Source: Bacteroidia bacterium (GTDB lineage Bacteria > Bacteroidota > Bacteroidia > J057). Taken from it: DNA of 64,000 nt. The notes below the pieces were generated by a model. The model was given only the letters and a program-made list of their open reading frames with translations. It was not told the DNA's origin and ran no database searches. Position 1 is the first letter of the stretch. Every line of letters begins with the position of its first letter. Positions 15,537 to 43,397 of this stretch are shown here, piece by piece. Both the position numbers and the translations under genes were made by a program. The stretch lies in NCBI GenBank assembly GCA_033391075.1, contig JAWPMV010000001.1, positions 4,898,001 to 4,962,000 of the forward strand, in the 5' to 3' direction.

Positions 15537-17192
<1,656 letters not shown>

Positions 17193-17203
17193 TCATAAAA
17201 CAG

Positions 17204-17232
17204 AAAGGCTGCCAATTAGGCAGCCTTTTTTG
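17204..17232 (+). terminator. Rho-independent terminator of groESL
   Basis: AAAGGCTGCC and GGCAGCCTTT arms (17204-17213, 17219-17228) with loop AATTA and a run of T follow the groEL stop codon. Confidence 0.93.
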
Positions 17233-17319
17233 TTTAAGGATGTGGGATTGTGTATCTTATAAAAAGAGCTTAAGGCATTAAGGCCTAAGCTATTACTCGC
17301 TAACCAACATCCTTATATT

Positions 17320-17454
17320 ATGAATGCGCTGGGAATCATTTTGACTCTGGCTGTCGTAGCTGGGGGATTCTATTTCGCCTACTGGGCCATTAAGCGAACA
17401 CTGGCAGACGATGCCGGAAAAAATCGTCGCCAAAGAAGATCCAGTAAAAGGTGA
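17320..17454 (+). CDS. Small single-pass membrane protein, 44 residues
   Basis: This short gene begins MNALGIILTLAVVAGG. Residues 3-24 form one uninterrupted hydrophobic helix with small and aromatic residues (GGFYFAYWAI), followed by a strongly basic tail (KNRRQRRSSKR) that predicts a cytoplasmic C-terminus. I do not recognise a family. It lies between the groEL terminator and the Fur-family gene on the same strand, with its own upstream gap. The clean helix plus positive tail supports a real small membrane protein. No function can be inferred. Confidence 0.55.
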   Translation: MNALGIILTLAVVAGGFYFAYWAIKRTLADDAGKNRRQRRSSKR

Positions 17455-17538
17455 TATGAGGAGGGCTTATCTGGTGAAGAGGAACGCCTTTTGCTTTTTT
17501 TTTAGTATCTTGACGGGCTTTGAAAAATTAATGTTTTT

Positions 17539-18015
17539 ATGCCAGATCTCCCTCCTATTAAACAACAGGAACGTATCCAGGAGGTAAAACAGATCTTTTC
17601 GGATTATCTCGATAGAAAAGGACAGAGAAAGACTCCAGAAAGGTTTGCCATCCTGGAAGAGATTTATAGTCGCTCGGATCATTTCGACGTGGAGTCTCTG
17701 TACATCCACATGAAGAATAAAAACTACCGAGTGAGCAGGGCTACTGTTTACAATACCCTGGATCTTCTTGTAGAATGTGATCTGGTCAAAAGACACCAGT
17801 TTGGCACCAGCCAAAGCCTTTTCGAAAAGTCATACGGATACAAGCAACACGATCATCTCATCTGCACATCCTGTGGTAAGGTGATGGAATTCTGTGACCC
17901 ACGTATCGGGGAAATTGAAAACACAATCGGCAACATCCTCAATTTTAAGGTGAGCCATCATTCATTTACCATCCACGGCATATGTAGTACATGCTCGGAG
18001 GATAAAACACAGTAA
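17539..18015 (+). CDS. Fur family transcriptional regulator
   Basis: The 158-residue protein has the typical Fur layout: a winged helix in residues 20-95 ([37 protein letters not shown]) and a metal-binding dimer domain ([17 protein letters not shown], then [13 protein letters not shown]). The two CxxC pairs form the structural zinc site. In this phylum such regulators may be Fur, PerR or Zur; the sequence does not decide which. The start at 17539 leaves a short [10 protein letters not shown] lead. The STAS gene follows after 20 bases and is probably cotranscribed. Confidence 0.92.
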
Positions 18016-34332: not shown

Positions 34333-34359
34333 AAAAAGGAGGAAAGTTTCCCTCCTTTT
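34333..34359 (-). terminator. Terminator of the oxygen-sensing kinase/regulator operon
   Basis: AAAAAGGAGG (34333-34342) and CCTCCTTTT (34351-34359) pair around AAAGTTTC, with the T tract on the minus strand just after the regulator stop codon at 34380. Confidence 0.85.
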
Positions 34360-34379: not shown

Positions 34380-35438
34380 TTAAAATCTAATTCCTCTAAT
34401 TCCTTCCGGCTTCAAAATCTCTATTTCGCTTTGACGTGTATTGAGCAAGCCTTCTGATTTGAATTCAGATAGCACGCGGATGACACACTCTTTTGAGGTG
34501 CCAACTATGCTGGCCAAATTATCCCGGGAGAGAGAGATTTTAAATTCCTCCTTGTCTTGTTCCTGGTATTTATCGTAAAGACGCATGAGGGCATCTGCTA
34601 CACGTTTACGGACGGTATCATAGGCCAGATGAAGAAGTTGTTCCTCCTTTTCGGCCAAATCCCTAGATAGCAATCGAATAAATTTGTGAGAGACATCTCG
34701 ATTGTTGTACATCAGGGCAAGGAAATCTTCTTTAGGGATGAGGATAACTTCACTTTCTTCCAAAGCCATTGCAGAGTCCACATAGGGTGAATCTTTCAGT
34801 AAAGAATTGTAGCCAATAAAATCTCCGGCTTTGTATAAGCCTTCTACATATTCTTTGGCATCTTCATTGGTTTTGTAAGTCTTAATCCGACCGGAATTGA
34901 TAAAATAGAGATAGTAAGAATTGTGCCCTTCTTCAAAGATCAGGTCCTTGGGTTTATACATTCTTTTCTCCCGATCCTCCGCCAACATATCCAATGCTCC
35001 TTTCGCCCGAACCTCGTCTACAAACTGCGTCAGCTCCTCTTCATTTCCTACATTCAGGGAACTGATACTCTCAACCTTTTTCTTCCGCATCTCTATGGCA
35101 TCCAACAACTCTACATCTTCAAAAGGTTTGGTCAGATAATCATCTGCTCCAAGGTTCATCCCCTTCCGAAAATCAGCTTTTTCGGCTTTAGCAGTTAGAA
35201 AAATAAAGGGAATTCCAGCTGTTTTGGGATTTCTACTCAACATATGCAATACTCCATACCCATCTAACTCTGGCATCATGATATCACAAATGATGAGCTC
35301 AGGGTCCACCTCACCGGCAAGCTGGACACCTCTTTTTCCATGTTCGGCAGTCATGACTTCGTAGCCTGCCAGTTCCAGGATTTCCGCAGTATTCTCGCGC
35401 ATATCCGGATTGTCTTCTATCAGGAGGATTTTATTCAT
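34380..35438 (-). CDS. Response regulator fused to a CRP/FNR-type DNA-binding domain (FixJ-FixK hybrid-like)
   Basis: The 352-residue protein has a receiver domain (1-120; phospho-acceptor Asp52 in LIICDIMMPELDG, Thr82 and Lys104), a cyclic-nucleotide-binding-fold domain (about 150-260; IFEEGHNSYYLYFINSGRIK, YKAGDFIGYNSLL), a dimerisation helix and a Crp-type winged helix (about 285-345). The recognition helix TSKECVIRVLSEF (314-326) keeps Glu317 and Arg321, equivalent to the base-contacting Glu181 and Arg185 of CRP. There is no N-terminal Cys cluster, so it does not sense O2 through an FNR iron-sulfur centre. Its gene overlaps the FixL-like kinase gene by eight bases. It likely binds the TGAC-N4-GTCA sites upstream of the two neighbouring usp operons, including its own. 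Confidence 0.92.
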   Translation of the reverse strand: MNKILLIEDNPDMRENTAEILELAGYEVMTAEHGKRGVQLAGEVDPELIICDIMMPELDGYGVLHMLSRNPKTAGIPFIFLTAKAEKADFRKGMNLGADDYLTKPFEDVELLDAIEMRKKKVESISSLNVGNEEELTQFVDEVRAKGALDMLAEDREKRMYKPKDLIFEEGHNSYYLYFINSGRIKTYKTNEDAKEYVEGLYKAGDFIGYNSLLKDSPYVDSAMALEESEVILIPKEDFLALMYNNRDVSHKFIRLLSRDLAEKEEQLLHLAYDTVRKRVADALMRLYDKYQEQDKEEFKISLSRDNLASIVGTSKECVIRVLSEFKSEGLLNTRQSEIEILKPEGIRGIRF

Positions 35439-37098
35439 TAGCTTTTACCTTACGAGGAAACCTGATGGAGAATTCAGTTCCCTCATTTAATTTACTTTTT
35501 GCCTCTATCTCTCCATTCATTAATTCTACATGCCTTTTTACTATGCTTAGTCCTAGACCAGTTCCCTGGATATTGCCGGCATTTTTTGCCCTGAAAAATC
35601 GCTCAAACAGATGTTGCATCTCCTCTTCCGGAATTCCCATCCCTCTATCAATCACTTTGAGGAAGAGGCTGTCTTTGGTCAATTTGCTTAGCAATTGTAT
35701 CTGAGTGTTTTCGGCTGAGTATTTAACTGCATTAGACAGCAAGTTGATCAAAATATTTTGGGTCAGTTTAGGATCAAGTTGGACTTCTTCCTCCAAGCCT
35801 TCATGCTGGTATTCTATGATCTGCCCATCCTTCGCCTGGGTTTCGATATCTTCGCAAACTTCCTGCGCAAGGCTCCGGATATCAAATTCCTCGGTTTCCA
35901 ATTCTACTCTTCCTTCTTCCAATTTACTTAAAGAAAGGAAATCGTTCAGGATGGCTGTCAGGTTCTTTACATTGGATTTTATCCGATTGATATGTTTATC
36001 CCTCCGATTAGCATATTCCGTATTCTGATATTTCTCAAGAAGGTTCATGGAGGAAAGGATGGTAGCCAATGGGGTCCTGAACTCATGAGAAGCCATAGAA
36101 ACAAAGCGCGACTTAAGTTCATTCAACTCTCTTTCTTTTTTCAATGCCTCCTGGGTTTCTGCTTCGCTCAATCTCAGGGCTTCTTCTATAGTCTTTCGTT
36201 CCTGTATTTCTTTTTTCAGGCCATTGATTGCCTGAGCCAAAGCACTAGTCCTGGCTTCAACTCGCTGTTCCAATTCTTCTGAATACTTTTTCAGTTCGTT
36301 TTCAAATGTCTTCTGTTCAGAAAGGTCATGGACAATACCTGCATAAAAATGCCCGGCATGTGTTTCTACCTTGCTCACCGACAGATAAAAGGGGAATAAA
36401 CTTCCGTCTTTTCTTTTCCCTTCCACTTCTCGACCTATACCCACAATTTTAGCTCTGCCTGTCTTATGGTAATTGTCCAAATATCCATCGTGGGCAGAAT
36501 GATGAGGCTCAGGCATCAACATTTTTATATTGCGCCCTATCACTTCTTCCTTATCATAGCCAAACAGAAGGGCTGCTGCAGGATTCATAGATCCTACGAT
36601 TCCTCTGGGACTGATGGTAATCACTCCGTCAACCGCATTTTCAATCAGGGCAGAAAGGAGGTTTTCATTATCGTCAAGTGAATTTTGGATTTCGCCTTTT
36701 TCTGTCTGGTCAACAATATGGGCGATCACATAGGAACCTGCATCAATTTTTATCGGATTCAAGCTAATGTCCAGGGGCATTTCTTTACCCGTGCGGGTCA
36801 ATCCTTTTAACCGTTTTACCGAATTTTTCTTGCGAGGTCCGGGGGATTGCCAGAAGGAATCTACCTGGGCGCGGTGGCCTCTACGGTACTGTCCGGGTAT
36901 CAGCTCATCCAGCTTCATGCCCAACATTTCCTGGGGATCATACTCAAATAATTCCCCTGTTCGAGCATTGGCCATAACGATCCGCGAATCCTGATCAGAC
37001 ACCAGTATCCCTTCCAGAGAATGGTCAAAGAGGGCCTTGAGAACAAGGTCAATATCGACACTAATCGCGTTTAAAGGATCTCTTGGATGCTCTGACAT
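35431..37098 (-). CDS. FixL-like PAS-heme sensor histidine kinase
   Basis: The start is set at the ATG at 37098 (555 residues); a TTG 21 bases upstream is less likely. Two PAS domains (about 15-132 and 143-262) precede a coiled coil (about 263-330), a HisKA domain (phospho-acceptor His338 in FVSMASHEFRTPL) and an HATPase domain with DRGMGIPEEEMQ and GTGLGLSIVKR. PAS2 carries the FixL heme signature: MPEPHHSAHDGY with His203, then VGIGREVEGKRKDGS with Arg223. Their spacing of 20 residues equals that of the heme ligand His200 and O2-sensing Arg220 of Bradyrhizobium FixL. PAS1 resembles it but lacks the GIGR element. The kinase has no membrane segment. It should sense O2 (or NO/CO) and phosphorylate the overlapping REC-CRP regulator. 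Confidence 0.92.
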   Translation of the reverse strand: MSEHPRDPLNAISVDIDLVLKALFDHSLEGILVSDQDSRIVMANARTGELFEYDPQEMLGMKLDELIPGQYRRGHRAQVDSFWQSPGPRKKNSVKRLKGLTRTGKEMPLDISLNPIKIDAGSYVIAHIVDQTEKGEIQNSLDDNENLLSALIENAVDGVITISPRGIVGSMNPAAALLFGYDKEEVIGRNIKMLMPEPHHSAHDGYLDNYHKTGRAKIVGIGREVEGKRKDGSLFPFYLSVSKVETHAGHFYAGIVHDLSEQKTFENELKKYSEELEQRVEARTSALAQAINGLKKEIQERKTIEEALRLSEAETQEALKKERELNELKSRFVSMASHEFRTPLATILSSMNLLEKYQNTEYANRRDKHINRIKSNVKNLTAILNDFLSLSKLEEGRVELETEEFDIRSLAQEVCEDIETQAKDGQIIEYQHEGLEEEVQLDPKLTQNILINLLSNAVKYSAENTQIQLLSKLTKDSLFLKVIDRGMGIPEEEMQHLFERFFRAKNAGNIQGTGLGLSIVKRHVELMNGEIEAKSKLNEGTEFSIRFPRKVKANE

Positions 37099-37141
37099 AT
37101 GCTTATCTTTCTTTAGCAATTAAGATAAGGAAGAAGGAATA

Positions 37142-38023
37142 CTATTCCGCCTTTAGTTTTGCTTTTTTTGATCGATTTTTAAGTTTCCGACTATCTGCCT
37201 GAAAAACCCATACAGGTACTTTACTCTGAAAGGCCATATCCCAGGTTCTGCTCCCTCCAATAATTCGGTTAAAAATACTCCTATGATGAGTCAGCATGAC
37301 AATCAGATCGATCTCTTTCAGCTCAACATAAGCATTTAGGCCGGCTACAATATCATCATTGGTAACAATGTCAATACTAATAGGGCTATTTATGAGATCA
37401 TGTTGATAGGCTTCTTCCAGGATGCTTTTTTTATACACATCCAATTGCTCTCCTTCCCGTTGGATATGTACACAATGCACCTGGGCATCCAGGCTATTTG
37501 CCAGGTTTATCACCTTGTCCAATGCGAGGATATCTTCCTCTTCAAGATTGGAAGCATATGCGATTCTTTTAACCGGCGTATAAGCAGCACTCTCTGGAAC
37601 TACAACTACAGGACTATGGGTATTTTGGATAACTCTTGTAGCAGTTGTACCCAGAATCTTCCTGAGGGCTTTATTCTTTCCCCTCATCCCCATCACGATC
37701 AGGTCAGCATCCATAGCATCACTTTCTTCAAGAATTGCATCTACAGGCATCCCTGGTACGGTCTTAGCTGAAATATCCAGAAAATCTCCGTGCTCCAACT
37801 GGATGCGCTCTAATAACTTATTGATATGTGTCTCTGCAATTTCTCTAAAAGAATCTCCTAGTTGAGACAATAATTCAACAGGCATTTCGGGATCAGGAAT
37901 AGGAAGGGAGTATACATGAAAAATCATCAATTTATCCACTTCTTTATTCATCATTTCCAGGGCATATTCTAATGCCTTATGTGAAGCAAGGGAGAAATCG
38001 ACGGCGACGAGAATTCTTGACAT
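37142..38023 (-). CDS. Universal stress protein, tandem UspA domains
   Basis: The 293-residue cytoplasmic protein has two UspA folds. The first (1-143) begins MSRILVAVDFSLASHKALEYAL and keeps the ATP-binding pattern G-x2-G-x9-G-T (MGMRGKNKALRKILGTTATRV). The second (about 148-280) starts RIAYASNLEEEDILALDKV and is degenerate at the nucleotide loop. The C-terminus is very basic (KLKNRSKKAKLKAE). It is the first gene of the operon with the FixL-like kinase (43 bases downstream) and REC-CRP regulator. A TGAC-N4-GTCA site lies 80 bases upstream. Usp proteins help cells survive starvation or low oxygen; the link here is contextual. Confidence 0.93.
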   Translation of the reverse strand: MSRILVAVDFSLASHKALEYALEMMNKEVDKLMIFHVYSLPIPDPEMPVELLSQLGDSFREIAETHINKLLERIQLEHGDFLDISAKTVPGMPVDAILEESDAMDADLIVMGMRGKNKALRKILGTTATRVIQNTHSPVVVVPESAAYTPVKRIAYASNLEEEDILALDKVINLANSLDAQVHCVHIQREGEQLDVYKKSILEEAYQHDLINSPISIDIVTNDDIVAGLNAYVELKEIDLIVMLTHHRSIFNRIIGGSRTWDMAFQSKVPVWVFQADSRKLKNRSKKAKLKAE

Positions 38024-38049: not shown

Positions 38050-38114
38050 TAAAACTAGCAGCCAATTGAGCAAAAGGAGATGACCTCTCCAGATTCCAGA
38101 AGTGACTTTTGTCA
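38050..38114 (-). promoter_or_regulatory. CRP/FNR-type operator and promoter of the usp-kinase-regulator operon
   Basis: The palindrome TGACTTTTGTCA (38103-38114) reads ATGACAAAAGTCAC with its flanks on the minus strand. Its centre is 51.5 bp upstream of TAGTTTTA (38057-38050), a near-match to the TAnnTTTG -7 element. If transcription starts a few bases past this element, the site centre lies near -61, the class I activator position. Exactly the same geometry occurs at 40485-40549. Confidence 0.7.
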
Positions 38115-38120
38115 TTCTGA

Positions 38121-38151
38121 AAAAAATGGAGCCAGCCGGGCGGCTGACTCC
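38121..38151 (-). terminator. Terminator of the upstream usp operon
   Basis: On the minus strand GGAG-x-CAGCCG pairs with CGGCTG-x-CTCC (arms in 38128-38151) followed by a T run (38121-38126). It ends the operon 40469-38181 just before the operator of the next operon. Confidence 0.82.
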
Positions 38152-38180: not shown

Positions 38181-39044
38181 TCACTTTTTCTCGACTTCCC
38201 GCTCATCAGCGGGTAAGGATAAGACGGGACATTCAAGATGATTGATAAGTTTTCCAGATACGCTACCTCTGAATATCTTTTCAAATGGACCTTTCTGGTG
38301 ATGGACAACACAAAGAAGATCGGCTCTTGAGTTGGTCATATAGTGTTGGACTCCCAATTCTACAGATTGATCGGCTTTGCCGTGAATCTGACAGGGAAGT
38401 GCCCAGCATAGTTTTTCAAATTGTCTCATTTTCTCGAGGGTCTCTTCCTGCACTACAAATTCCTTGACGGAGGCAATGTAAAGCAGGTGCAAAGTTGAGC
38501 CAAAGTTCTGGAGCAAGCGGATCAGATCCGTAAAAGGTTGCTTTGCATCTTCATTGAAGTCAGAGGCAAAGACCACATCTTTCAGGTAGAAATCTCCGAT
38601 CGGATGTTTAATGATAAGCACAGGAACATCGACAACATTGCTTACTTTCTGTGCATTGGATCCCAGAAACATCTCCTTTAATCCATCAGCCCCTTCAGAA
38701 CCCATTACAACCAAATCGATATCAAACTTATCTACCAATTGTTCAGCTCTATCCATCAAATCTCCAGATGAGTATATAGAGTTGATGCGGATACCGGAAT
38801 GCATATTTCGCTCGATTACCTTATTAAATTGTTCCATCATTGCCTCTTCTTTTTTAAGAAGATTGGGATGACAATCTTTTTCTTCATCGGTAAAAATGTT
38901 CCAGTCCGGATGGAGGTGAATACGATGGTACAAATAGATTTGGCCGCTGATTTTTCTTGCAAACTTTATGGCTGCTTGTAAAGCATATTCTGAATGATCA
39001 CTAAAGTCTGTGGGTACGAGGATATTTTTTATAAGCTTAGACAT
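38181..39044 (-). CDS. Universal stress protein
   Basis: The 287-residue protein has two UspA-type halves. The first begins KNILVPTDFSDHSEYALQAAI and has a nucleotide loop VMGSEGADGLKEMFLGSNAQKV (G-x2-G-x9-G-S). The second (about 150-280) starts DVVFASDFNEDAKQPF and ends in VHHQKGPFEKIFRGSVSGKL. The gene overlaps the preceding usp gene by eight bases and is the last of its operon. It differs clearly in sequence from the other two Usp proteins here, so this is an old family set and not a recent tandem duplication. Confidence 0.92.
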   Translation of the reverse strand: MSKLIKNILVPTDFSDHSEYALQAAIKFARKISGQIYLYHRIHLHPDWNIFTDEEKDCHPNLLKKEEAMMEQFNKVIERNMHSGIRINSIYSSGDLMDRAEQLVDKFDIDLVVMGSEGADGLKEMFLGSNAQKVSNVVDVPVLIIKHPIGDFYLKDVVFASDFNEDAKQPFTDLIRLLQNFGSTLHLLYIASVKEFVVQEETLEKMRQFEKLCWALPCQIHGKADQSVELGVQHYMTNSRADLLCVVHHQKGPFEKIFRGSVSGKLINHLECPVLSLPADEREVEKK

Positions 39045-39987
39045 AATCGAGTGTTTTAAATTTTTTGATACTAAAAGATGGAAGTTTTTCTACCTCATCA
39101 TGACGAGGTCTAAGGATCATAAGGGGAATATCAAGATTCAGTTCCAGGACTTTTTCACTGACACTTCCCAGGATTAAGTTGCCAAAGAAAGAGTGTCCAA
39201 AGGCTCCCATTACCAGGAGATCGGCCTTCAATTCTTTTGCAGCATCATATACATAGTGGCCGGGATTTACGTGCATATTTTCGACCAATTTCAATTCTAT
39301 ACCTTTCTCCCCATAGCCCAGCACATCCAGATAATGAAGAAAGAATTCTTCATGTGTTTCTCGAATTCGTTTCAGGATCAAATCTGGACGACCACCCAGT
39401 TGAGCCCTTACCCCTGAAGGCACATCGTATACATGAATCAGGCTCAATTTGACTTTAGCAGGTAGTTTTTCTGTCCAGTCCAGTACCTTTCTTAAGGCAT
39501 AGGTAGAAGTAGGAGAAAAATCTGTTGCCAGAGCGATGTGGGAAATTCTTTGCTTCTTTTTATGTGGGATAAAGAGAACAGAACCGGGACTCTTTCTCAG
39601 ATATCTCCTGGCTGAAATTCCGGATCCCTGGCTAGGTATCTTTCGCCCCAGTATGGCCAGATCTATCCCTTTTACTTCAGCCCAGTGCAACAATTGTTCT
39701 CCCGTCTTTCCTTCCAGTACATTACAGTCCACTTCAAACTCCCCGGGTTTCAGTTTCAGCTTTACTTCCTCTTCCAGACTTTTTTTCAGCCTTTCATCCA
39801 GGGGAGTAGCCTTCATTTCTCCTAATTCATCCATTACAAAACTGGGAAGGTCCAATTCTTTTACCACATGGGTACAATACACTTTTTCCGGTTTTTGGAT
39901 TCCCGCAAAGACCTTCAAATAATCCAATAAGTATAAATCTGTATTGGAGAGGTCCATACCGAGAAGGATTCTTTTAAATGCATTCAT
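39037..39987 (-). CDS. Universal stress protein, tandem UspA domains
   Basis: The 316-residue protein has a degenerate first UspA domain (KRILLGMDLSNTDLYLLDYL; ILGRKIPSQGSGISARRYL) and a second (about 150-305) with an intact loop, VMGAFGHSFFGNLILGSVSEKV (G-x2-G-x9-G-S). ISHIALATDFSPTSTYALRKV marks the start of the second domain. It overlaps the upstream small exported-protein gene by four bases and the downstream usp gene by eight, so the three are translated from one message, probably under control of the operator at 40538-40549. Confidence 0.92.
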   Translation of the reverse strand: MNAFKRILLGMDLSNTDLYLLDYLKVFAGIQKPEKVYCTHVVKELDLPSFVMDELGEMKATPLDERLKKSLEEEVKLKLKPGEFEVDCNVLEGKTGEQLLHWAEVKGIDLAILGRKIPSQGSGISARRYLRKSPGSVLFIPHKKKQRISHIALATDFSPTSTYALRKVLDWTEKLPAKVKLSLIHVYDVPSGVRAQLGGRPDLILKRIRETHEEFFLHYLDVLGYGEKGIELKLVENMHVNPGHYVYDAAKELKADLLVMGAFGHSFFGNLILGSVSEKVLELNLDIPLMILRPRHDEVEKLPSFSIKKFKTLDYV

Positions 39988-40469
39988 AATATAGAGCTTG
40001 TGTTGAAGGTTGATTCATTGATTCTGATAAGTCTCCGATTGAGGTGGTTTTCCATTTCAGCCTCGCAGGATTCATAGTAAAGAACCGTTTGCCCCTCTTC
40101 TATTTCATAGCTTATTTCCGCATAGTCGAGGTAGAGAAGGCAAAAACTTTCATCCTTATCCATGGCTCCTACATAAATGAGTTTGTCCTCTATCAATTCG
40201 AAAACCAGATATTCCGCAAAACCGGGCTTACAATATTCGCTGATCTTTAGGCGAACCTGGTTCCTATAAATCCATTCTCTTTTTACTTCTATCCACAACA
40301 TATCCGGCTCACCCAAATCCGTATCTCGATGCTCATTTACCCAAATCCCTTCTATTTTTTCTACATATTCCTCCAGAGCACCTGCAGGTTTTTCTTCAAA
40401 TCTGAAAGCTGTAAATAACAGTCCACCAAGAAGTAATGCTAAGCCGATATGTAAGGAGGTCTTTTTCAT
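39984..40469 (-). CDS. Small exported or membrane-anchored protein, first gene of a usp operon
   Basis: The start is set at the ATG at 40469: an in-frame ATG at 40487 lies inside the predicted -7 promoter element. The 161-residue product begins MKKTSLHIGLALLLGG, an uncleaved anchor or signal peptide (about 5-22), followed by a Glu-rich segment and a domain of alternating strands with three Cys (KISEYCKPGF, ESFCLLYLDY, YYESCEAEM). I do not recognise a family. It may be a periplasmic beta-sheet protein. It leads the operon with two usp genes and shares the FixK-like operator, so it is a candidate for induction under low oxygen. Confidence 0.75.
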   Translation of the reverse strand: MKKTSLHIGLALLLGGLLFTAFRFEEKPAGALEEYVEKIEGIWVNEHRDTDLGEPDMLWIEVKREWIYRNQVRLKISEYCKPGFAEYLVFELIEDKLIYVGAMDKDESFCLLYLDYAEISYEIEEGQTVLYYESCEAEMENHLNRRLIRINESTFNTSSIL

Positions 40470-40484
40470 TTTGATCTCTTTTCT

Positions 40485-40549
40485 CAAACATATAGGAGAG
40501 ACACTAATTCAAGAATGAGAGAGCGCAGAGGCAGGAGTGACTTTTGTCA
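40485..40549 (-). promoter_or_regulatory. CRP/FNR-type operator and promoter of the usp operon
   Basis: The palindrome TGACTTTTGTCA (40538-40549) reads TTGACAAAAGTCAC on the minus strand, close to a FixK/FNR box. Its centre is 51.5 bp upstream of TATGTTTG (40492-40485), a perfect TAnnTTTG -7 element. The distance is identical to that in the operator at 38050-38114. The divergent kinase gene starts about 75 bases on the other side. Confidence 0.75.
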
Positions 40550-40625: not shown

Positions 40626-42758
40626 ATGATTTGTGCAAGGCTAAGAAGAATGACATTTTTTTTTAACTTATTCATAGCTATGCACTTACACCATTCTTTA
40701 CTCCTGATCTTCATTTTCTTTGGCAGCTTTAGTTCGATTAAGGCTCAGCCAGAGATTGTAGATAGCCTGAAAAAGGTCCTTGCTGCTGAGCCTGAAGAAT
40801 CGGTTCGTATGGAAAGTCTGATTCAGCTTGCAGAACAGCTTCAATTTATTGAGCCGGCCAAAGGCATTGAACTTGCGCGAGAGGCAAGAGATATTGCCAC
40901 AAATAGAAAAGACACTTTTGCACTGGCTGGAGCCTTGTCTCGGATGGGCACCTGTTATGAAATCCTGGGGAACCTGGAGGAGTCAGAAAAAATCAGAAGG
41001 CAAGCTCTATCTCTTTATTTGTATTTAGGCAAATCAGTAGATATCGGGAAACAATACACCAATCTGGCTACAATCTTCGACGCCCGAGGAGATCTTGATT
41101 CAGCCATATACTTTAATGAAAAAAGTCTGCAATTGTATAGTGATGGGGGTACGGCTATGGATTCAGCAATCGTATTCAATAATCTGGGTATTGTGTATGA
41201 ACGTCTGGCAAATTATGCCCAGGCCGCGGATATTTATCTATGGGCCTTACGCAGTTTTGAAAAAGCTGGGCATGAATACTACACTTCATTTGCACATGCT
41301 AATCTGGGCAATATTTATTTGCTCATGGAAAATGAAAAAAAGGCAAAGTATCATTTTCAGCGATCACTTGTGATTAAGAAAAAGCATGAGGACCGTATAG
41401 GCCAGGCCATTGTTTACAACAACATGGCCAAGCTGTACAAATCTGAAACAGAAGTTGACTCTGCAATATTTTTCAACCAAAAATCTTTGGCAATCCGGGA
41501 AGAGTTGGGAGATACCCTAGGGATGATTGATGTTTATATAAATCTGGGAGCGATTTATCGCGATAAGGGGCTCCTGGCGAAAGGTATTCCTTATCTGCAG
41601 AAAGCCTATGACTTCGCCAGGTTGAAAGAAGTAAAGACCCAGGAGGCCAAAGCTGCTGTCCAATTGGGAAGAGCATACATTGATAGCGGGCAAAGAAAGA
41701 AAGCACTTATGCTGCTGGAAAAAGGACTTCTCAATTCCCTTCAGGGAGGAGAGCCAGAAACTCGTTTGTTGGCATATAAATCTTTGGCAAGTCTGTACCA
41801 AAAAGAAAGGAACCCGAAAGGATTTGAATTCTATGAAAAGGCTATTGAACTGGATGATAGTTTAAGAAACAATGAGGAAACTCGGAAAATCACCCGTCTG
41901 GAAATGCAGTATGAATTTGACAAGGAAAAGGAATTTCTTGAATTAGAGCAACAAAAACAGGAAATCGCCTTCAATGCTGAACTGGACCGCCAAAGATTTC
42001 AGAGAAACATAAGTTTGGGAGGAATCATTTCCGGCCTGATAATCCTCCTTTTGCTCTGGAGAAGCTACCGCATCCAAAAGAGAAACAGAAGTTTACTCCA
42101 AACCCAGAATATACAGCTCGAAGAGGCTTTGCGAGACAGAGAGAATCTTTTGAAAGAAATCCATCATCGGGTCAAAAACAATCTTCAGGTTGTATCCTCT
42201 CTTTTGAGTTTGCAATCGCGTTCGATAGAAGATCCTGTTGCCCTGGGTGCCATAGAAGAAGGGAGGAACCGGGTAAAGGCTATGGGCCTCATTCACCAAA
42301 ATCTATATCAGGAAGAATATCTGGTAGGGGTGAATTTGCCACAGTACATCGAAAAACTCACGGACAATTTGCTGGATTCTTATAAGCTTCATGAAAGCAA
42401 GATTCATATCAGCAGGAAAGTCGAAGAATTATCTATCGATGTAGACACCCTCATTCCTCTGGGGCTTATCCTCAATGAATTGATTTCCAATTCCCTTAAA
42501 TATGCTTTTGAAGGTCGGAATGAAGGCAACATCCATTTACACATCGGAAAAAGTAAGGAAGGACTTCTGGTAGAAGTTGCCGATGATGGTGTTGGACTAC
42601 CCAGAGACTTTAATCATGAGGAAAGCAAATCTATGGGCTATAAGTTGATCCGGGCTTTTGTGCAGAAAATGAAAGCGACTTTTGAAGTTATGTCTGATCG
42701 GGGTACACAGGTGAAAATTTTTCTTCCAGAAAACAATGCTCAATATCAAGTATCTTAA
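40626..42758 (+). CDS. TPR-containing sensor histidine kinase (HisKA_2 type)
   Basis: The protein has up to 710 residues, but the start is uncertain: the ATG codons at 40650 or 40680 give a cleaner signal peptide (hydrophobic core LLLIFIFFGSF, ending IKAQ). A periplasmic array of about seven to eight TPR repeats follows (residues 60-400; IVFNNLGIVYERLANYAQA, TSFAHANLGNIYLLM). Then come a coiled coil, a transmembrane helix (about 460-478), a HisKA_2 domain with LLKEIHHRVKNNLQVVSSLL (phospho-acceptor His near 513) and an HATPase domain (LILNELISNSLKYAF, VADDGVGLP). It senses an envelope signal through the TPR part. The LuxR-type regulator 21 bases downstream is its likely partner. Confidence 0.92.
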   Translation: MICARLRRMTFFFNLFIAMHLHHSLLLIFIFFGSFSSIKAQPEIVDSLKKVLAAEPEESVRMESLIQLAEQLQFIEPAKGIELAREARDIATNRKDTFALAGALSRMGTCYEILGNLEESEKIRRQALSLYLYLGKSVDIGKQYTNLATIFDARGDLDSAIYFNEKSLQLYSDGGTAMDSAIVFNNLGIVYERLANYAQAADIYLWALRSFEKAGHEYYTSFAHANLGNIYLLMENEKKAKYHFQRSLVIKKKHEDRIGQAIVYNNMAKLYKSETEVDSAIFFNQKSLAIREELGDTLGMIDVYINLGAIYRDKGLLAKGIPYLQKAYDFARLKEVKTQEAKAAVQLGRAYIDSGQRKKALMLLEKGLLNSLQGGEPETRLLAYKSLASLYQKERNPKGFEFYEKAIELDDSLRNNEETRKITRLEMQYEFDKEKEFLELEQQKQEIAFNAELDRQRFQRNISLGGIISGLIILLLLWRSYRIQKRNRSLLQTQNIQLEEALRDRENLLKEIHHRVKNNLQVVSSLLSLQSRSIEDPVALGAIEEGRNRVKAMGLIHQNLYQEEYLVGVNLPQYIEKLTDNLLDSYKLHESKIHISRKVEELSIDVDTLIPLGLILNELISNSLKYAFEGRNEGNIHLHIGKSKEGLLVEVADDGVGLPRDFNHEESKSMGYKLIRAFVQKMKATFEVMSDRGTQVKIFLPENNAQYQVS

Positions 42759-42779: not shown

Positions 42780-43397
42780 ATGAACCGCATTAAAATACTA
42801 GTCGTAGAAGACGATGTTTTTATTGCTCAGGATATCAGCGAACATTTGACAAGTCTTGATTATTGGGTTACTGGGGTAGCTTACCGGGCAGAAGAGGCCT
42901 ATGAGGAGCTAAAAAAAGAACTTCCAGATTTAGTCCTGCTCGATATTAATTTGGGGAAAGGAGAGGATGGGATATGTATTGCCCGGCACATCCAAAAAGA
43001 ATATCAAATTCCCTTTATTTTTCTCAGTTCTTATTCAAGTAGTTCAGTATTGGAAAGAGCAAAACCCACCCATCCGCTGGGATATATTGTTAAGCCCTTC
43101 AATGAACAGGACCTATATACCAGTATCGAAATCGGTCTGTATAATTATGCCCAACGTTGGCAACCTTCTAATTGGAATCCAGAGACCATCAACCGCAAAC
43201 TTGTCACCGAATTTACCCCTAAGGAAGTTGAAGTATTGCAGGATATTTTTGAAGGGAAGACCAATCGCCAACTTTCTCAAAAGCACCATATCAGCCTAAA
43301 TACAGTCAAGACCCATGTAAAACGGATCTATGAAAAGCTGGAAGTTCATGCCCGTTCGGAAGCCATGGCCAAGCTGAGAAACAAATTAGCCCGCTAA
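42780..43397 (+). CDS. LuxR/NarL-type response regulator
   Basis: The 205-residue protein has a receiver domain (1-125; acidic DD at 11-12, Asp55 in LVLLDINLG, Lys in YIVKPFNEQD) and a LuxR-type helix-turn-helix (about 140-200; FTPKEVEVLQDIFEGKTNRQL, HISLNTVKTHVKRIYEKL). It is the second gene of the operon with the TPR histidine kinase and should be phosphorylated by it. The regulated genes cannot be identified from this window. Confidence 0.94.
   Translation: MNRIKILVVEDDVFIAQDISEHLTSLDYWVTGVAYRAEEAYEELKKELPDLVLLDINLGKGEDGICIARHIQKEYQIPFIFLSSYSSSSVLERAKPTHPLGYIVKPFNEQDLYTSIEIGLYNYAQRWQPSNWNPETINRKLVTEFTPKEVEVLQDIFEGKTNRQLSQKHHISLNTVKTHVKRIYEKLEVHARSEAMAKLRNKLAR

Follow-up and report, generated by a model that had tools for sequence, protein, structure and literature searches.

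In rhizobia the FixL-FixJ-FixK cascade controls the cbb3 genes at low oxygen, and in mycobacteria the heme kinases DosS and DosT act with DosR, with universal stress proteins (USPs) as output. Here we analyze a sensor kinase and a regulator joining a receiver domain to a CRP/FNR module, encoded in a 64,000-nucleotide stretch of a Bacteroidia bacterium genome (contig JAWPMV010000001.1, positions 4,898,001 to 4,962,000; hereafter the window), which an earlier note had read as a FixL-like oxygen sensor coupled to a one-piece FixJ-FixK regulator. The pair is probably a soluble oxygen-sensing two-component system, namely an FNR whose iron-sulfur (Fe-S) sensor has been swapped for a heme-PAS kinase and a receiver. 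Judged by its sequence, the system is a new variant built from known parts, and homology does not identify its proteins as FixL, FixJ or FixK.

The locus shares with the rhizobial cascade a FixL-type PAS domain just before the kinase core, a CRP/FNR-type last step and a predicted control of cbb3 genes at low oxygen. It differs in that the receiver and the CRP module are parts of one protein, that the receiver is nearest to RpaB/PhoB types among the NCBIfam models and the CRP half resembles the FNR proteins of Bacteroidota, and that the kinase, at 173 bits, stays below the cut-off of the NCBIfam rhizobial FixL model (850 bits). Calling the regulator a one-piece FixJ-FixK therefore captures its logic and not its descent: the receiver-CRP/FNR fusion is translationally coupled to the kinase and widely conserved, whereas the homology to FixJ and FixK was not borne out. 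Likewise, the FixL-like sensor is retained as a FixL-type, probably heme-binding PAS domain by sequence, tree and fold, but not as a protein recognized by the FixL model. The mycobacterial system has GAF heme sensors and a LuxR-type regulator, and the comparison with DosR and dormancy is only an analogy.

The stand-alone FNR proteins of Bacteroidota have the same recognition-helix pattern as the CRP half of our regulator, share with it the predicted operator dyad before CcoN and are often located beside CcoN. In contrast to the fusion they are one-component proteins, with an N-terminal CxxC in 16 of the 21 best matches at the place where the fusion has its receiver. The heme PAS domains of E. 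coli DosP and of FG214 are related to PAS2, the second PAS domain of the kinase, by fold and sequence similarity, but are attached to other output domains; DosP also has the proximal His and the Arg, so this pattern is not unique to FixL. The motif of the CRP/FNR-family regulator HcpR1, TTGACnnnnGTCAA, has the same core dyad and spacing as the operator predicted below, although HcpR1 regulates hcp and related genes, and the accessible parts of that report mention no receiver domain (PMC1274295). In the open-licence literature, as covered by titles and the starts of abstracts, no receiver-CRP regulator of cbb3 genes in Bacteroidota was found, which is weak evidence of absence.

The sensor kinase and its regulator

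The kinase open reading frame (ORF) encodes 562 amino acids from a TTG start, or 555 from an ATG at codon 8, with two PAS domains, HisKA and HATPase_c in Pfam and the expected catalytic motifs (H-box His345, N box and glycine boxes). PAS2 is identical to S. meliloti FixL at 47 of 111 positions (42%) and to B. japonicum FixL at 45 of 114 (39%), and its 13 matches in the PDB with E<=1e-8 belong without exception to FixL or DosP. Its His210 aligns with the proximal helix F His of FixL and is followed 20 residues later by the FixL Arg, a spacing that is the same in both rhizobial proteins; counted from the ATG, these residues are the His203 and Arg223 named in the earlier note. PAS2 also retains Ile/Leu/Val at the distal positions. 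Both the His and the Arg are invariant in 11 aligned PAS domains of class A, the classes A and B being assigned by a rule on aligned residues devised for this analysis.

In a tree of 103 rows, PAS2 and 23 other class-A domains group with two FixL domains, DosP and one class-C domain, and a branch with 99/99 support parts this group from 72 class-B domains; the alignment is short and the bootstrap unsettled, and the tree does not establish class A as a single clade. The first PAS domain of the window kinase, PAS1, is placed with class B on a long branch. For the AlphaFold2 model of PAS2 (11 sequences, predicted local distance difference test score 85), the closest structure in the fold search is FixL 1d06 (template-modeling score 0.91, 1.4 A). 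FixL and DosP structures fill ranks 1-30 of the search, followed by the FG214 heme PAS at rank 31, and LOV and other PAS domains appear from rank 33. Both sequence and fold thus group PAS2 with solved heme PAS domains. Heme binding is beyond proof by fold alone; from sequence and fold together PAS2 likely binds heme and senses O2.

The regulator contains Response_reg (residues 4-116), cNMP_binding (159-244) and HTH_Crp_2 (278-348) domains. Residues D9, D52, T82 and K104 of a phosphorylatable receiver are invariant across 25 aligned homologs, in agreement with the proposed role of Asp52. Cys51, which directly precedes it (window 35286-35288), is also invariant in the 25 homologs, and a redox effect of this residue on phosphorylation is conceivable. 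The four Pfam families found at E<=0.01 include no LuxR-type helix-turn-helix (HTH), which is characteristic of FixJ; FixJ is not among the 25 best NCBIfam models shown of 113, and the score against the NCBIfam CRP equivalog is 79.7 bits versus a cut-off of 266. The CRP fold carries an FNR-type recognition helix with the Glu..Arg pattern, VGTSKECVIRVL; in the helix K-E-C-V-I-R, Arg180 is missing and Glu181 is kept, which fits the specificity rule for residues 180/181 of CRP/FNR proteins (PMC1274295). Cys51 and Cys318 are the only cysteines, and the N-terminal 4Fe-4S Cys ligands of FNR are absent.

Relatives of the regulator at E<=1e-40 were found in 44 of 296 genomes of the phylum including our own, all of them in the same class as the window, one genome (G017) being matched by the CRP half only; in our genome, one of 93 matches spans the whole query. 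The sampled set comprises 47 loci from the other 43 genomes. The named set is the best 80 of 579 stretches with tblastn relatives at E<=1e-3 (a collection that may include plain receivers), with 312 or more of the 352 residues matched in every one; their titles name mostly Bacteroidota groups, some only an uncultured bacterium. One contig with the system (L076) is labeled as an Azovibrio restrictus metagenome-assembled genome and is probably mis-binned. Loci lacking a regulator ORF that covers 85% of the query were excluded (L044, L077 and L096 of the named; L161 and L188 of the sampled). Of the 77 named loci that remained, 69 have a kinase directly 5' of the regulator, as do 40 of the 45 sampled ones. 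Together with the window these give 110 coupled kinases, with PAS domains of class A in 22, B in 74, C in 5 and none in 9.

In seven of the nine loci without a PAS domain, a kinase with a FixL-type PAS is found at a distance of 3.3-3.7 kb on the upstream side, and is followed by a lone receiver and then a receiver-kinase. These loci (L039, L040, L042, L045, L054, L060, L072) share the array of a kinase with two FixL-like PAS domains, a lone receiver, a receiver-kinase and the receiver-CRP protein, the first FixL-like PAS of L060 being without the motif; the array probably represents the same system in the form of a phosphorelay.

The predicted operator and the proposed circuit

The noncoding DNA of 128 loci (360 kb) was searched for 4-mer dyads separated by 4 bp; this census revealed 80 sites of TGAC-N4-GTCA versus 4.0 expected and 153 of TGAT-N4-ATCA versus 12.4, whereas the other dyads of the top 12 had at most 11 sites each; in a scan of gaps 0-12 the peak is at 4. 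In 73 of 110 loci the combined dyad TGAY-N4-RTCA lies 5' of the kinase-regulator operon, versus 0-3 for four scrambled dyads. It was found in 26 of 40 loci of the evenly drawn sample (scrambles 0-1, other gaps 1-4) and in 46 of 69 named loci (scrambles 0-2, other gaps 3-8), and, by PAS class, in 12/22 operons with class A and 55/74 with class B.

Within about 10 kb of the regulator, 22 of the 45 sampled loci have a USP and 16 a cbb3 gene (CcoN/P or FixG/H/I); a ScdA/hemerythrin gene and HemN, an oxygen-independent heme enzyme, are further neighbors. Family labels other than USP were checked by Pfam on one representative each, that of HemN being a radical-SAM match, and USPs were labeled by similarity to representatives and to the Pfam-confirmed USPs of the window. 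Among genes with an upstream gap, the dyad precedes CcoN in 15 of 17 cases, FixI in 6 of 8, HemN in 7 of 9, ScdA in 5 of 5 and USPs in 31 of 44, and the suggestion that USPs are an output of the system is therefore likely to be right. CcoP, which is mostly operon-internal, has the dyad in only 1 of 24 cases. Proteins of 139 amino acids without Pfam match are also seen near the system (e.g. L050:6095-6511 and L104:10152-10568), and where their genes have an upstream gap, the dyad precedes 13 of 14.

The genome of the window (9.49 Mb) has nine TGACWWWWGTCA sites, versus six for the reversed control. Four of the nine fall into the two intergenic regions of the window operons (38103 and 40538) and 5' of FixI and CcoN; the CcoN site and both window sites are the same 12-mer, and the FixI site is one base off. 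Four of the remaining five are in coding sequence and one precedes a 115-aa protein. By eye, this last site (L201:1501; G000:C1:3129539) lies before a putative membrane protein, itself preceded by a gene resembling a ribosome hibernation factor. As the AT spacer of TGACWWWWGTCA was picked after the window sites were known, the count of 60 genomic TGACN4GTCA sites is the less biased yardstick; four of these 60 fall within these upstream regions, which amount to about 850 bp and would by expectation hold 0.005 sites.

Other motifs were set aside. TTGATN4ATCAA had only 3 intergenic matches in 81 loci; the window has no perfect match, and 73 with up to two mismatches versus 68 expected. Genome-wide (G000; loci L124-L138) this motif occurs 54 times versus 13 for the reversed control, and it probably belongs to another CRP/FNR regulon. 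The idea that a helix Ser in place of Ile (FNR Ser212) brings a preference for TTGAT did not hold in 10 loci with Ser (20 sites), and a strict 18-base consensus gave one site only.

On the basis of FixL biochemistry and the anatomy of the two proteins, we propose a circuit in which PAS2 would bind heme b via His203, and O2 on the heme, contacted by Arg223, would inhibit the kinase. At low oxygen the kinase would phosphorylate Asp52 of the regulator, and the phosphorylated receiver would allow the attached CRP/FNR module to bind TGAY-N4-RTCA, the predicted DNA target being TGACAAAAGTCA. In this genome the regulator is predicted to act on its own operon, on the neighboring USPs and, on another contig, on the FixI and CcoN units of the high-affinity cbb3 oxidase. 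Beyond the observed anatomy, conservation, operator statistics and genomic links, we infer the heme, the signal (O2 rather than NO), the direction of regulation (activation rather than repression), the phosphotransfer, the role of PAS1 and the reader of the operator.

Counter-evidence and alternative readings

Several observations weigh against this circuit. On the side of the sensor, a FixL-type pocket is directly present in only 22 of the 110 coupled kinases; the class-B domains (74/110) keep the His and lack the FixL distal pocket, and 14 kinases have neither type. The use of class B as a non-heme control was dropped because the domains that it matches best bind heme as well. On the side of the operator, the dyad is missing from 37 of the 110 operons, and it lacks specificity for the named targets, since in these loci it also precedes 190 of 657 other genes, compared with 2-9 for scrambled dyads. 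Nor is TGACN4GTCA enriched genome-wide (60 versus 62 in the control). The dyad is present in 25 of 26 CcoN upstream regions of genomes with the fusion (scrambled 0-5) and also in 19 of 25 of fusion-free genomes (scrambled 0-1), with L233-L235 and L240, which are outside the class or have a split CcoN, left out of this comparison. This refutes the dyad as an exclusive mark of the fusion, and the motif alone does not name its reader.

It is accordingly possible, though we consider it unlikely, that the operator belongs to another, one-component FNR, which would count the receiver-CRP regulator among its targets, and that the latter controls a regulon of its own. In a chosen, non-random survey of 21 fusion-free genomes with CcoN and 8 of the 43 genomes with the fusion, all 21 of the former have a stand-alone FNR-like protein; the best match has an E-x-x-I-R helix in 19, and a stand-alone FNR lies at most 10 kb from CcoN in 18 (in two of them through a lower-ranked match). 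In the genome of the window, moreover, two CRP-like proteins (L301, L302) retain both Glu181 and Arg185, with a Ser in between, and related sites might be recognized by them. However, the next CRP-like proteins of this genome are only 24-25% identical to the regulator, and the E-x-x-I-R helix is absent in the eight others that were read (L304 being unaligned at the helix). Five of the eight surveyed fusion genomes have no stand-alone match better than E=1e-19, and all five keep the dyad 5' of CcoN; the other three have both the fusion and a stand-alone FNR. One operator with two alternative readers is the simplest reading of these data.

The same circuit might also respond to a signal other than O2, with the kinase sensing NO, redox state or heme availability via PAS2. 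The solved FixL heme domains include, by their structure titles, NO- and CO-bound forms, and the ScdA/hemerythrin neighbor has the dyad in all five cases; yet the cbb3 oxidase and assembly genes in 16 of the 45 sampled loci, the link to the radical-SAM gene read as HemN, and the FixL Arg and distal Ile/Leu/Val kept by PAS2 argue for O2 and leave such a signal rather improbable. That PAS2 is not a heme domain here, and that the kinase senses something else, perhaps via PAS1, appears very unlikely in view of the invariant His and Arg of the class-A domains and the grouping of PAS2 with FixL/DosP by both tree and fold. In favor of this possibility, PAS2 carries Asn and Lys at the positions of R206 and H214, which have roles in FixL. 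The FixL/DosP-type PAS cluster is described as large, with the His as its primary heme determinant, and this His is missing from about 40% of the cluster, so ligands may vary in the family (PMC10468136).

Locus organization and implications

All genes of the locus are on the minus strand, in the order (5' to 3') 167-aa protein, three USPs, kinase and regulator, and the features are listed in the table below. The overlap of the kinase and regulator genes that had been noted previously is 8 bp between stop and start, and the USP at 37142-38023 is confirmed, with two further USPs upstream of it. We read USP-kinase-regulator as a separate transcription unit because a terminator-like hairpin and then the dyad at 38103 set it off from these two USPs. 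This hairpin has the most pairs among the five terminator-like hairpins of the region, a number not above shuffles (mean 5.9). By eye, the operator at 40538 also faces a divergent ORF resembling a TPR-kinase (40626-42758), followed by a response-regulator ORF (42780-43397).

Features of the locus in the window (positions from the first letter of the window)
Feature	Position	Strand	Basis
Response regulator: receiver and CRP/FNR module (two-component FNR)	34380..35438	-	Pfam, alignment of 25 homologs
Cytosolic sensor kinase, PAS1 (class B)-PAS2 (FixL-type)-HisKA-HATPase_c	35431..37119	-	Pfam, motifs, PAS class, tree
PAS2, predicted heme PAS; His210/Arg230 from TTG (203/223 from ATG)	36313..36657	-	sequence, tree and fold all nearest FixL/DosP
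Tandem-domain USP, leads the USP-kinase-regulator unit	37142..38023	-	Pfam Usp, two stretches
Predicted operator TGACTTTTGTCA, centre 85.5 bp 5' of USP ATG (38023)	38103..38114	.	dyad scan
Terminator-like hairpin, 10 pairs and T run, separating USP-kinase-regulator from the two USPs 5' of it	38128..38151	-	
USP	38181..39044	-	Pfam Usp
USP	39037..39987	-	Pfam Usp
167-aa protein, first ORF of the upstream unit	39984..40487	-	no Pfam or NCBIfam match at E<=0.01
Predicted operator, 12-mer identical to 38103 site, centre 56.5 bp 5' of first ORF (40487)	40538..40549	.	dyad scan
Terminator-like hairpin 3' of regulator; weak, not above shuffles	34340..34356	-	

The cbb3 operon of this genome is located away from the window on contig C3. 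By eye, this operon (L139:6874-15637 and 16335-17642; G000:C3) adjoins a plasmid-initiator-like gene on a 252-kb contig, and the respiratory oxidase may thus be plasmid-borne.

The predicted operator and the cbb3 link go beyond the earlier note. For a large part of the Bacteroidota, we find it somewhat more probable than the contrary that the low-oxygen regulon, comprising the cbb3 genes, stress proteins and heme synthesis, is served by interchangeable FNR proteins that have the same operator and recognition helix and different sensors. The sensor options would be a one-component FNR with a Cys motif, and a receiver-FNR that takes its signal from a heme-PAS kinase or from a phosphorelay of four proteins with a FixL-type kinase at its head, which would amount to a natural sensor swap on a fixed regulon. 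If this is true, the logic of FixL-FixJ-FixK is shortened here to a single step, and the family provides a natural case of a global regulator changing its oxygen sensor, from Fe-S to heme via phosphorylation, with its DNA code and regulon kept. It would also supply a regulator family, an operator and a set of targets ready for direct testing.

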